A DNA stretch of 30,245 bases from positions 1 to 30,245 of the IMG/VR virus record IMGVR_UViG_3300033571_008051, one strand, 5' to 3'. The notes beneath the pieces were generated by a model, which did not search any database, was not told where the DNA came from, and saw only the letters and a program-made list of their open reading frames with translations. Below, in pieces: positions 12,880 through 30,245 of the stretch. The number at the start of each line of letters is the position of its first letter. The first letter of the stretch is position 1. The position numbers and the translations under genes are program-made. The DNA is from a virus.

Positions 12880-13083
12880 TCAATTCGCTGAGATTCCTAA
12901 ATTATTAGGATCAATTTCCATATTCAAAAATTCGCCCTCATATTCATTGTACTTGAGTAAGTACCTCACCTGCGATTCCCGTATAGTATAGCCGATAACG
13001 ACATAAGCGTTTTTTTCGGCATCGGTCTTAAGATAAACTATCTGACCGATTTTAAATTTTACCTCAATTTCATAGCTATACAT
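12880..13083 (-). CDS. Small hypothetical protein (67 aa)
   Basis: Its ATG overlaps the stop of the phosphoesterase gene by one base. The product has FKIGQIVYLKTDAEKNAYVV followed by a YLLKY strand, a small beta-barrel-like pattern frequent in unnamed phage proteins. It ends 25 bases before the methyltransferase start. I do not know its function. Confidence 0.7.
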   Translation of the reverse strand: MYSYEIEVKFKIGQIVYLKTDAEKNAYVVIGYTIRESQVRYLLKYNEYEGEFLNMEIDPNNLGISAN

Positions 13084-14036
13084 TACAAGACCTCCCCATT
13101 TAAAATTCGATAGTTAGTAACGTGATATTTGTCCTTTGATTTGCTTTGAATGATTGCAAACCCGTGGTTGTATTTTGCGTATTTCGAATAATCTGGACGA
13201 AGCTCACTCAAGCACCCAACACTCCAACACGTTGTTATTTTACCATTCATATCAGTTTCTGTGTGTTCGGAAGTTTGGTGACTGTGACCACACATCGCGG
13301 AAGTCTTAGCACGCATATAAAGTCCTCTTGCGACATTGACCGGACTGAAAGTACTTTTTCCAAATTCGTGTCCGTGTACTAAATTCAATCCCTTGTATCT
13401 AGCAGTTGCCATTGGATCAATTTCTATAATTCCAAATTTTTCGAAATCAAATAAGTTAGCAAAATTTATTGATTCAATTCCCTCAAGCGCACTAGCATTC
13501 CTGCGGATGTATGATAAGTATCTCATTTCGTGGTTTCCATACAAAAAATATATTTTTGATTTTGGGAATTTGTATCGCAAATAGCTAAAAAACTGTTTTG
13601 TTAACTGAACTTCCTCAGCCCACCTGCGCTTGTACTTGCTTTTTTCAAATGAGCTTATTTCGTAAGCGTCCACGCAGTCGCCGCCTAAAAAAATAGTATC
13701 ACAATTTCTGCGGACACATTCATTGATAGCGCAGTGAAGTGCTTTTATGTCGTGATATGGTACGTGAACATCGTACAAGCACAAAATTCGGGATCCTTCA
13801 ATTTCCAAAACACACTTTTCCGTAGCATCACTCTTAGGTAAATTACGGAAAACGGGAGTTAATGTGTCAAAATGTGGTTTTTTCTTACTTGTAACGTGGA
13901 CGTGATAGGCTCTCCTCATTGTGCCAGAGGAGACTTTGAAGTCAGCAGCTAATTGATTTAAGTAGTTGTCTACCGATTGGTCTTTTGGTTTTGGGTTGTC
14001 CTTAAAGACTTGAATCCACTTGGATGTTTTTCTCAT
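13083..14036 (-). CDS. Calcineurin-like metallophosphoesterase with N-terminal HTH
   Basis: The protein has 317 residues. The metal-binding motifs are complete and in order: D89-V-H91, GGD120CVD123, GNHE (167-170), HGHE near 221 and GHSH (250-253). This is the calcineurin-like fold, which hydrolyses phosphodiesters or phosphomonoesters using two metal ions. Residues of roughly 24-48 (NQLAADFKVSSGTMRRAYH) look like a helix-turn-helix, so the enzyme may be directed to DNA. It is the first gene after the intergenic region that holds the putative small RNA and is coupled by TAATG to the next gene. The substrate is unknown; a nuclease role is only inferred. Confidence 0.85.
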   Translation of the reverse strand: MRKTSKWIQVFKDNPKPKDQSVDNYLNQLAADFKVSSGTMRRAYHVHVTSKKKPHFDTLTPVFRNLPKSDATEKCVLEIEGSRILCLYDVHVPYHDIKALHCAINECVRRNCDTIFLGGDCVDAYEISSFEKSKYKRRWAEEVQLTKQFFSYLRYKFPKSKIYFLYGNHEMRYLSYIRRNASALEGIESINFANLFDFEKFGIIEIDPMATARYKGLNLVHGHEFGKSTFSPVNVARGLYMRAKTSAMCGHSHQTSEHTETDMNGKITTCWSVGCLSELRPDYSKYAKYNHGFAIIQSKSKDKYHVTNYRILNGEVL

Positions 14037-14270
14037 TTTATTTATTTTAAGTATTCGCGGTAAAAATAGACAAAATTGTTAATAATAAAAGAAAGAAAAG
14101 AAAAGTGAAAAGAAGATAGAAAATCAAAAACAAAAGAAAGAAAAAGTTCCCCTAAAAACTCTCTTCTGTTTTAAAAATGATTACACGATCCAAGCGTTGG
14201 TGTGTCGCAAGTGTGCCTATCTTCCTCGGTCTTGGCAGTAACCATTCCTTAAATGTTCATTTTGTCTATA
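14037..14270. other. Non-coding stretch with polypurine tract
   Basis: No convincing gene lies here. Bases 14087-14150 on the plus strand are almost only A and G (repeated AAAGAAAG and AAAAG units), so the minus-strand transcript would carry a long pyrimidine tract ahead of the phosphoesterase gene. Close to the ATG (14036) is the A-rich leader AAAATAAATAAA. A weak promoter-like box CAATTTTG lies at 14081..14074 without a partner at -33. The remainder (14151-14270) shows no repeat or strong hairpin that I can see. Confidence 0.6.
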
Positions 14271-14273
14271 AGC

Positions 14274-14307
14274 AAAAAAGAACCCCGCAGGTACAAGCTA
14301 CGGGGTT
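14274..14307 (-). terminator. Intrinsic terminator ending the putative small RNA
   Basis: A 10-bp GC-rich hairpin with a 7-nt loop is followed by one C and six T in minus sense. It also stops transcription arriving from the genes ending at 14436, so the genes below 14036 need read-through or a promoter of their own. Confidence 0.8.
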
Positions 14308-14382
14308 GAGATTGCAAGAGTTTTAATCTTACTTGCCCACCCCTATAATTCTTGTACTAATTATAGGATTGGGCTATATTAG
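14274..14382 (-). ncRNA. Putative small RNA with kissing-loop hairpins
   Basis: A consensus promoter (14417..14387) predicts a start near 14382. Hairpin 1 (14374..14335) pairs GCCCA with TGGGC and, after a 2x2 internal loop, CCTATAATT with AATTATAGG around the loop AGTACAAG. After a 27-nt linker, hairpin 2 (14307..14281) pairs AACCCCGTAG with CTGCGGGGTT (10 bp, one G-U) around the loop CTTGTAC, and is followed by CTTTTTT. The whole 7-nt loop of hairpin 2 is perfectly complementary to GTACAAG in loop 1. The transcript would be about 110 nt. No ORF of meaningful size lies in it. It could be a trans-acting RNA, a dimerising RNA, or a leader that attenuates the phosphoesterase operon. I recognise no Rfam family. 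Confidence 0.65.
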
Positions 14383-14386
14383 GCGA

Positions 14387-14417
14387 CAAACATAATGACT
14401 TTTTTTTAATATGTCAA
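14387..14417 (-). promoter_or_regulatory. Bacteroidota-type promoter for the putative small RNA
   Basis: TTG at 14417..14415 and TATGTTTG at 14394..14387 are separated by exactly 20 bases, matching the Bacteroidota housekeeping consensus (TTG or TTTG near -33, TAnnTTTG near -7). The predicted start is a few bases downstream, near 14382. It lies in the gap just after the stop codon of the Cys-rich gene. Confidence 0.75.
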
Positions 14418-14435
14418 TACTTATTTGATTTTTTT

Positions 14436-14858
14436 TTAACCGCACCACAAATCTCGAACTTGTTTCTTGAGATCCTCAACCACCTGGGCAACACACGGCG
14501 GACAATGGGATGGCTCAAACTTTACACCACTTAACTCGCTCTTGTATCCGTATATTTTTCTTATTTGCTCGGTAGTTACAAAGTTGACATCTATTGACTC
14601 AATAAAAGACTTCATTTCACAAGCCGTATCCAAGCTCACATCTACTGTCCCCCATTTGCCAAGTGGACAAGCACTCGCCTTAAATAATGTTTTGACTTTC
14701 ATAAAACAACCACATAGCCTTTTTTCCTCTCCGTTGTAAATGACTTTTTGGTTGATTTGGGATCCGCAACGCACACCCATAGGCGAATGGTGCAGGAACT
14801 CACATTTCAGACAAGTATCAAAACGTTGTTTTTTAATGTTTTCCTCTACTGTGAACAT
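14436..14858 (-). CDS. Cys-rich putative zinc-binding protein
   Basis: The protein has 140 residues. Conserved-looking cysteines are arranged CLKC (16-19), RCG (30-32), CGCFMKVK (49-56), CPLGKW near 64, and a late CPPC (118-121). The first four fit one or two zinc ribbons of a kind I associate with small Bacteroidota phage proteins; the exact function is unknown. It overlaps the sigma-like gene by 26 bases and is followed directly by the small-RNA promoter. The second half (residues 70-140) is helical and charged. Confidence 0.72.
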   Translation of the reverse strand: MFTVEENIKKQRFDTCLKCEFLHHSPMGVRCGSQINQKVIYNGEEKRLCGCFMKVKTLFKASACPLGKWGTVDVSLDTACEMKSFIESIDVNFVTTEQIRKIYGYKSELSGVKFEPSHCPPCVAQVVEDLKKQVRDLWCG

Positions 14859-15372
14859 AGGTAAGTAATTTTTCTCGCGAGTACTGAATATTACGAATGA
14901 TGTACTGCTGACTCGTGCCTATCTCTTTTGAAAGATTAAACGCATAATCCTTTAGCGACATTCCACTGCTCAAGTAATCGTTGAATAAATCGCGCTCAAA
15001 TTCGCTCAGACGGCTGATAATAATGTCTAACTGCTCTCTTGTTAAATAGAAATCGTCGGACTCGCTGATTTCGGGGGGGGTGTACTCAATCGCGGTGGCG
15101 TGCAGGTCGTGTAATTTATGATAACTACTTTTCTTATCGTAAAATTGAAGCACTATAGCTCTAGATAAATAAGGTCGAATCTCACCGGATAGACACAAAC
15201 GCTCGTAATTCGGGGAATGACTGATAACATCAATACAATGATGGACGAGATCCAAGTGAATGTCTCGGTTGTATGTCTTGGTCACGCGAGCTGCCACTCG
15301 TAACCAGTAGTCGTAGTATGTTTCTAAGCTACACAAGTGATAGGTAAGTTTCAATTTCTTTAATAGCCTCAT
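14833..15372 (-). CDS. Sigma-70-like / ECF-type transcription factor
   Basis: The protein has 179 residues. The C-terminal 70 residues (REQLDIIISRLSEFERDLFNDYL, then SLKDYAFNLSKEIGTS and a recognition-helix-like IIRNIQYSREKLLTY) resemble sigma region 4. The N-terminal YYDYWLRVAARVTK with DLVHHCIDVI resembles the start of sigma region 2. Such proteins would bind RNA polymerase and could direct later phage transcription. The gene overlaps the nuclease gene upstream by 44 bases and the Cys-rich gene by 26. Similarity is weak and from memory, so a different HTH regulator cannot be excluded. Confidence 0.55.
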   Translation of the reverse strand: MRLLKKLKLTYHLCSLETYYDYWLRVAARVTKTYNRDIHLDLVHHCIDVISHSPNYERLCLSGEIRPYLSRAIVLQFYDKKSSYHKLHDLHATAIEYTPPEISESDDFYLTREQLDIIISRLSEFERDLFNDYLSSGMSLKDYAFNLSKEIGTSQQYIIRNIQYSREKLLTYVHSRGKH

Positions 15373-29878: not shown

Positions 29879-30245
29879 TTAGTTTTTGTTAAGTGAAGCA
29901 AGGACACGCTCTGTCTGCGACATCTGTGACCAAGACTTTTTACTTAGGTTTGTTTTTTCTTTTTCTACTTCGCGCTTAGTTTCTTTAACCGAATTAGTCG
30001 CAGGAACTTTAGCGAGTTTTGCATTTTCAGATTTCACTTTCGCGAGATCTGTTTTAAGCGTTTCGTTCTCAGACTTCACAGTCGATAGTTCAGCAGTCGC
30101 TGAGTTCAATTGACCTTCAAGTTCCGACACGCGACCTGCAAGTGCTTCAACTGCTTGGCGAACATCGTCGCTCATTTCAGTCTCTTCAACTTCTTTCGCT
30201 TTAATCGAAACGATTTTTCCATCCAAGACCTCGATAGTTGTCTCG
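29879..30245 (-). CDS. Scaffold-like virion assembly protein, C-terminal part (starts at 320)
   Basis: This is the remainder of the gene that starts at 320 and passes through the circular join; bases 30159-30245 duplicate 1-87. It encodes residues from about 78 to 199: EETEMSDDVRQAVEALAGRV, then a long coiled coil (ELEGQLNSATAELSTVKSENE) and a C-terminal basic linker ending in SQTERVLASLNKN. The coiled coil plus a short basic C-terminal motif is the usual plan of scaffolding proteins, whose C-terminus touches the capsid. It lies eight bases before the major capsid gene. Confidence 0.8.
   Translation of the reverse strand, partial: ETTIEVLDGKIVSIKAKEVEETEMSDDVRQAVEALAGRVSELEGQLNSATAELSTVKSENETLKTDLAKVKSENAKLAKVPATNSVKETKREVEKEKTNLSKKSWSQMSQTERVLASLNKN
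30159..30245. repeat. Right copy of 87-bp terminal direct repeat
   Basis: Identical to bases 1-87; see the left copy. Removing one copy gives a 30,158-bp circle. Confidence 0.95.

Follow-up and report, generated by a model that had tools for sequence, protein, structure and literature searches.

A predicted phage RNA family with a covarying contact between the loops of an upstream hairpin and an intrinsic terminator

Comparison of eight phage genomes led to the description of a predicted RNA family, absent from Rfam, in which a loop-loop tertiary contact between an upstream hairpin and an intrinsic terminator is demonstrated by covariation. The RNA probably acts in the regulation of the virus's own genes, and by analogy its function may be akin to pT181 attenuation or to that of the CI RNA of phage P4. 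Covariation-backed loop-loop tertiary contacts are uncommon for phage sRNAs, and RNA regulation in Bacteroidota phages has been little described so far.

Anatomy of the element in the window phage

The element was analysed within a stretch of 30,245 nucleotides (here termed the window) that corresponds to an IMG/VR virus record. The ends of the window (positions 1-87 and 30159-30245) form an exact 87-bp direct terminal repeat, and the genome is thus taken to be complete or circular. The element itself lies on the minus strand, as do the genes and RNA parts of the window described in this section, in an intergenic gap of 399 nt (14037-14435; a first-pass annotation of the same DNA had put it at about 400 bases). 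A gene for a Cys-rich protein (14436-14858) is found upstream of the element, and the next gene downstream, encoding a metallophosphoesterase (13083-14036), has its start codon 237 nt past the end of the element. Two genes upstream of the element, positions 14833-15372 weakly match a family of phage RNA polymerase sigma factors (phrog_1190, E = 7e-4). The metallophosphoesterase gene is separated from the terminator by approximately 240 to 400 nt of non-coding DNA with no assigned ORF or Rfam match, both in the window (14037-14273) and in the related phage L002 (L002:211-618).

The element begins with a promoter of the Bacteroidota type (14387-14417), in which TTG (14417-14415) is followed by 20 bases and by TATGTTTG (14394-14387), and which also scores as TTGACA-17-TATGTT; a single scan of the window from 13900 to 15000 listed no promoter-like sites on the plus strand. 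The predicted fold then consists of three consecutive hairpins in a linear layout. The first of these, P1 (14335-14374), which both fold and covariation support, comprises 15 pairs and is built from an outer helix of 5 bp (GCCCA/TGGGC), a small internal loop and an inner helix of 10 bp (TCCTATAATT/AATTATAGGG). Its apical loop, loop 1 (AGTACAAG, 14351-14358), carries the kissing strand GTACAAG as its last 7 bases (14357-14351). A small hairpin supported by the fold and by relatives, P2 (GTAAGA-N7-TCTTGC, about 14314-14332), separates P1 from P3 (14281-14307), an intrinsic terminator with a stem of 10 bp (AACCCCGTAG/CTGCGGGGTT) that is supported by fold and covariation and is followed by the T tract CTTTTTT (14274-14280). 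The terminator loop, loop 3 (CTTGTAC, 14291-14297), is the exact complement of bases 2-8 of loop 1, with 7 of 7 pairs Watson-Crick. The length of the RNA is predicted from the sequence to be approximately 105 nt. Its MFE is -40.7 kcal/mol (z = -4.7), and none of 200 dinucleotide shuffles reached a value as low.

The first-pass annotation had located the promoter, P1, the terminator and the T tract at exactly these positions on the minus strand, and had correctly described the terminator loop (its second loop) as complementary to 7 of the 8 bases of loop 1. Its description of two hairpins holds for P1 and P3 and fails as a total, since P2, its sole omission, lies between them.

When the window was shuffled with dinucleotide composition preserved, a terminator with an upstream hairpin and a kiss of at least 7 bp arose 54 times in 877 shuffles, and one with stems as strong as those of the element (at least 9 and 8 bp) arose in 5 of 877 (about 0.6%). 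In the window sequence by itself the element is therefore unusual and not unique, and the complementarity alone is suggestive; its reality is certain because of comparative evidence, and not because of single-genome statistics.

Covariation of the loop-loop contact and stems in eight phages

Carriers of the element comprise eight distinct phage genomes: the window phage, L002, L003, L004, L008, L091, L098 and L103. L002 was located through the gene neighbourhood of its metallophosphoesterase, which is 99% identical to that of the window phage; the element there has the same parts in the same position, spelled in other letters, with loops (TCTATCAC and AGTGATAG) that are complementary over 7 bases. 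A detector for a terminator with a kissing hairpin added L003, L004 and L008, three more phages with the metallophosphoesterase; L091 and L098 were found by a sequence pattern for P2, and L103 through the neighbourhood of its primase-helicase. L003, L004, L008 and L103 were first caught by a detector that demands complementarity; the P2 pattern, which makes no such demand, also picked up L004, L008, L091 and L098. When L003 and L103 were left out of a covariance model that likewise lacked the kiss, the model still recovered both of them, at about 29 bits, a score that ordinary terminators in bacterial genomes also reach (a match to model R1 below approximately 40 bits is not evidence on its own), and the membership of these two phages is accordingly based on syntenic position, promoter, fold and kiss.

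In all eight phages a TAnnTTTG promoter box precedes the element, at a distance of 9-26 nt from P1, and each also possesses a terminator with a U tract, so that the features of a transcription unit of a phage with a Bacteroidota host are present throughout. For single proteins, the closest cultured relatives include phages of Nonlabens, Flavobacterium, Cellulophaga and Chryseobacterium, among others, and together with the promoter type they suggest that the hosts are of the Bacteroidota type. The hairpin P2 is less uniform: its core, GTAAG...CTTGC, is kept in five phages, another helix occupies its place in L002 and L003, and it is weak in L103. This core belongs to class I of the family, and the same P2 is missing from class II and from L002.

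All eight phages keep a 7-bp pairing between the two loops (56 of 56 aligned cells are Watson-Crick), and they do so with six different sequences: GUACAAG, CUAUCAC, GUAGAGC, GGACUAG, GUACGAG and GUAAGGA, each with its complement. Six of the seven kissing pairs have changed on both sides; two-sided cells number 14 (2.8 in shuffles), a value that no shuffle among 500 reached, and in slid controls only 24-45% of cells are paired. The stems behave similarly, with two-sided change in 10 of 15 pairs of P1 (89% of cells paired) and in all 8 inner pairs of P3 (100% paired). These counts were taken from an alignment of the eight sequences (A9) that was set by hand, with N for gaps, while the structure was known, and that is thus biased in its favour; in view of the slid controls and of how large the effect is, such bias is unlikely to be the cause of the covariation.

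Every stem-loop is also an inverted repeat in DNA, and the single-genome chance given above is about 0.6%; inverted repeats serving as protein sites or cruciforms, or a coincidence, might therefore be considered as a source of the pattern. Against these explanations, G-U pairs favour one strand, the promoter and terminator are conserved, and covariation in eight genomes is matched by none of 500 shuffles. The stem cells include 12 G-U and 4 C-A combinations, which identifies the transcribed strand as the constrained one and selection as acting on RNA. A chance origin is refuted by the covariation, and a DNA-level element or chance, taken together, is highly improbable.

Six carriers have a complementarity of 7-8 bp, L008 one of 9 bp and L103 one of 10 bp; it stops at the loop or 1-3 bp beyond it, and no competing antiterminator helix, nor any alternative helix kept in the family, was found. 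As the complementarity stays near the loops, it is loop-loop kissing, and not a longer antiterminator, that appears to be selected, and the predicted contact between the loops is judged to be real and under selection. The first-pass annotation had proposed that related phages be compared for covariation of both stems and of the loop pair, and had named loss of loop complementarity as an outcome that would count against it; the stems and the loop pair do covary, and the opposite of such loss is seen. Its reading of the locus as a phage small RNA, composed of a promoter, a structured body, a terminator and a loop-loop contact, is likewise borne out by the presence of the promoter box, the terminator and the 7-bp contact in every carrier.

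Genomic position and exchange of the RNA core

In six of the carriers (L003, L004, L008, L091, L098 and L103) a distance of 9-12 nt separates the end of the motif from the ATG of a replication gene, and a primase-helicase gene follows. The product of the first of these genes is a replication-type protein, helix-turn-helix/DnaD-like in L003 and devoid of a Pfam match in L008 and L091. Since 9-12 nt leave no space for a promoter, the replication operon must be read through the terminator, and among the sRNA, attenuator and dimerisation roles that the first-pass annotation had listed, this position favours that of a leader or attenuator, at least in the six relatives. In the window phage and in L002, the next gene encodes the metallophosphoesterase, 237 and about 400 nt away, respectively, and no replication gene lies directly behind the element; in the other carriers the metallophosphoesterase gene sits elsewhere. 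Control of the replication operon is therefore not a universal role, and the RNA of the window phage could be a free-standing sRNA.

The same arrangement bears on the possibility that the element is a riboswitch-like leader or attenuator of the replication operon that acts in cis, the kiss representing a sensing fold for a protein or metabolite whose binding leads to read-through. While the short distance from terminator to ATG in six phages and the conservation of the P2 core in class I agree with such a role, a complementary antiterminator helix is missing (the complementarity ends at, or 1-3 bp past, the loop), class II and L002 do not have the same P2, and no gene stands directly behind the RNA in the window phage and L002. 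We consider this explanation unlikely.

The core of the RNA differs between phages that are otherwise closely similar. L003 (record L102) and L004 (record L101) are 87-100% identical in nearly every 100-base step of a 4.4-kb block surrounding the element (one step is at 77%), whereas the RNA element falls to 61-70% in 100-base windows, the deepest dip of the block; by direct alignment the RNA cores are 54% identical, and each forms its own perfect and different kiss. L091 and L103 have their promoter and start-codon flanks in common, but their cores are different and so, over a wider stretch, is the sequence nearby, and L091 and L098 share a core that is 96% identical behind a different upstream flank. 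From these three patterns, the RNA core behaves as an exchangeable module. Beside the RNA, the replication protein of L103 (L103:3174-4004) looks chimeric, with an N-terminal part like that of L008 and a C-terminal part like that of L091, indicative of module exchange there as well.

Swapping of the core between sister phages with unchanged flanks would also fit an arms race, in which the RNA serves as a decoy against host RNA-based defence or as an RNA that evades its trigger, with loops that vary as host systems vary. Such an anti-defence function has no similarity in Rfam and no known target to recommend it, leaves the conserved self-complementarity unexplained, and is regarded as quite improbable.

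Proposed mechanism and comparison with known systems

We tentatively favour a regulatory phage RNA (a leader or an sRNA) in which homotypic loop-loop recognition tunes read-through at the terminator, because exchangeable, self-matching loops at a terminator before replication genes resemble copy-control and immunity RNAs. By this mechanism, a compact phage RNA of approximately 105 nt would be transcribed from its own host-type promoter and end at its own intrinsic terminator, with the loops of P1 and P3 pairing over exactly the length of one loop (7-8 bp, and up to 10); the regulatory RNA would then set the amount of transcription that continues past the terminator to the genes that follow. 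The finished RNA would recognise its own copies, or the nascent leader of the same genome or of a sister genome, via the pairing of loop 1 with loop 3, and this recognition would bias the terminator, so that early phage genes would receive feedback that depends on dose and is specific to type. With 237 nt to the next gene, the RNA of the window phage may act mainly as a free sRNA.

The explanation ranked next is that loop 1 docks on the terminator loop within one molecule, producing a compact, nuclease-resistant sRNA whose function is exerted elsewhere, on a target mRNA or protein. The covariation fits kissing within a molecule as well as kissing between molecules. The length of the linker rises with that of P3 (Spearman 0.75, n = 8, for sequences that are not independent), a relation that hints at kissing within one molecule; the free-standing position in the window phage and L002, and the existence of a single RNA with its own promoter and terminator, point the same way. 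A rough estimate inferred from A-form geometry suggests instead that a single molecule in which P1 and P2 are closed and a coaxial kiss is formed would be strained, and would need strong bending or an opening of the outer part of P1 or of P2; moreover, a purely architectural kiss leaves the exchange of whole cores between near-identical phages unexplained. This explanation is a possible one, although rather unlikely.

A bolder extension of homotypic recognition, offered as a doubtful conjecture, is that the phage RNAs are self-typing: their loops would recognise only their own kind and control read-through into early or replication genes, and swaps of whole cores would provide an escape from cross-control. 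If true, this would be a counterpart, among viruses, of plasmid incompatibility, with one sense RNA serving as both sensor and target, and phages that ignore each other's RNA and answer their own would provide a case of RNA-based replication control or exclusion in Bacteroidota phages. The existence of near-identical phages with different, internally matched cores makes specificity directly testable. No PF00589 integrase and no HTH_3 repressor were found in the eight records (some of which are possibly fragments) in a search that covered these two families, and classical lysogenic immunity is therefore unlikely; roles in exclusion or timing during the lytic cycle may still be compatible with the missing genes.

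Several established systems share parts of this design. In pT181, the gene behind the leader terminator is repC, a replication gene. The rep attenuators of this type (RNAI and the repC leader) employ loop-loop recognition at a leader in which an intrinsic terminator halts transcription before the following gene is reached (PMC4878617). An intrinsic terminator just upstream of a replication gene's start codon is likewise found in the six relatives, but not in the window phage or L002. In pT181 the loop-loop partner is an antisense RNA transcribed from the opposite strand, whereas here both loops reside in one sense RNA; furthermore, an antiterminator competes in pT181, whereas here the terminator loop itself is the partner and no antiterminator helix was found.

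The C4 RNA of phages P1 and P7 is of the same kind as the CI RNA of phage P4. The latter is a small RNA, derived from a replication operon's leader, that recognises complementary sequences in this leader and ends transcription early (PMC4825925). Complementary segments lie within the present RNA and in its terminator, and they may act on termination in a comparable way. P4 CI RNA matures from a longer transcript and functions in lysogeny, whereas the RNA described here has a dedicated promoter and terminator, another fold, no match in Rfam and no integrase found among its carriers.

The loops of ColE1 RNAI and RNAII are 7 nt in length and fully paired. Their sequences diversify with matching kept, which sets specificity groups (PMC9458437), and full pairing over 7 nt with diversifying letters is also displayed here. 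The ColE1 RNAs, however, are a sense-antisense pair from opposite strands and act in replication priming, which as far as seen is not involved in the case of this single, self-complementary RNA.

In the packaging RNAs of the phi29 family, loop sequences differ between phages and the interaction persists (PMC5340915); as here, two mutually complementary loops are found in one RNA. A multimerising structural RNA of that type, forming rings through the loops of neighbouring molecules, would account for both halves of the loop pair being present in each molecule and for the variation of loop letters under preserved complementarity that was reported for pRNAs (PMC5340915). The present RNA, however, has no three-way junction and no phi29-type packaging context, and is a linear series of three hairpins ending in a terminator. 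The window phage possesses an ordinary large terminase (of the phrog_2 type), and the RNA lies away from packaging genes, adjoining replication genes in six phages, so that such a role is scarcely credible.

The Rfam 15 covariance models detected nothing at the gathering threshold in the whole window, and only sub-threshold chance matches in the element and the L002 locus; a search of open-access papers returned no description of the RNA. The DNA itself gave only short chance matches against 50,697 phage records, and sequence patterns for class I and class II returned only the known carriers and chance matches from the viral collection. Among the many relatives of the upstream Cys-rich protein, none is accompanied by the element (detector matches there are weak 6-bp chance pairs). 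In bacteria, genomes scanned with the metallophosphoesterase yielded nothing, those scanned with the primase-helicase yielded a single 45% relative, in a MAG, and model R1 identified only ordinary terminators (28-40 bits) across 398 + 395 genomes; these matches were checked by fold and kiss scan, except for L216, where folding covered only the opposite strand or an off-centre stretch of the locus.

The wider clade of phages related through the primase-helicase (about 50% identity) contains no member of the RNA family, and model matches there were rejected as plain terminators without a kiss. Palindromic repeats centred on TTATAAG were observed in the replication gene region of this clade (L120:3339-3382, L126:3335-3378, L154:3294-3337 and others); perhaps repeats of a replication origin and probably acting at the level of DNA, they were set aside as unrelated. 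The clade also contains another conserved, short transcript-like unit, consisting of a promoter box (TATATTTG), then AGCAAGTGTTAACGGTTTA, and a terminator with the loop TTTCTA, on the plus strand at L108:1549, L109:1482, L110:114, L111:1573, L113:1216, L114:1285 and L116:1647. Behind this terminator, L110 and L111 carry another hairpin, whose loop (TAGAAA) is complementary to that of the terminator, possibly representing a second loop-loop system.
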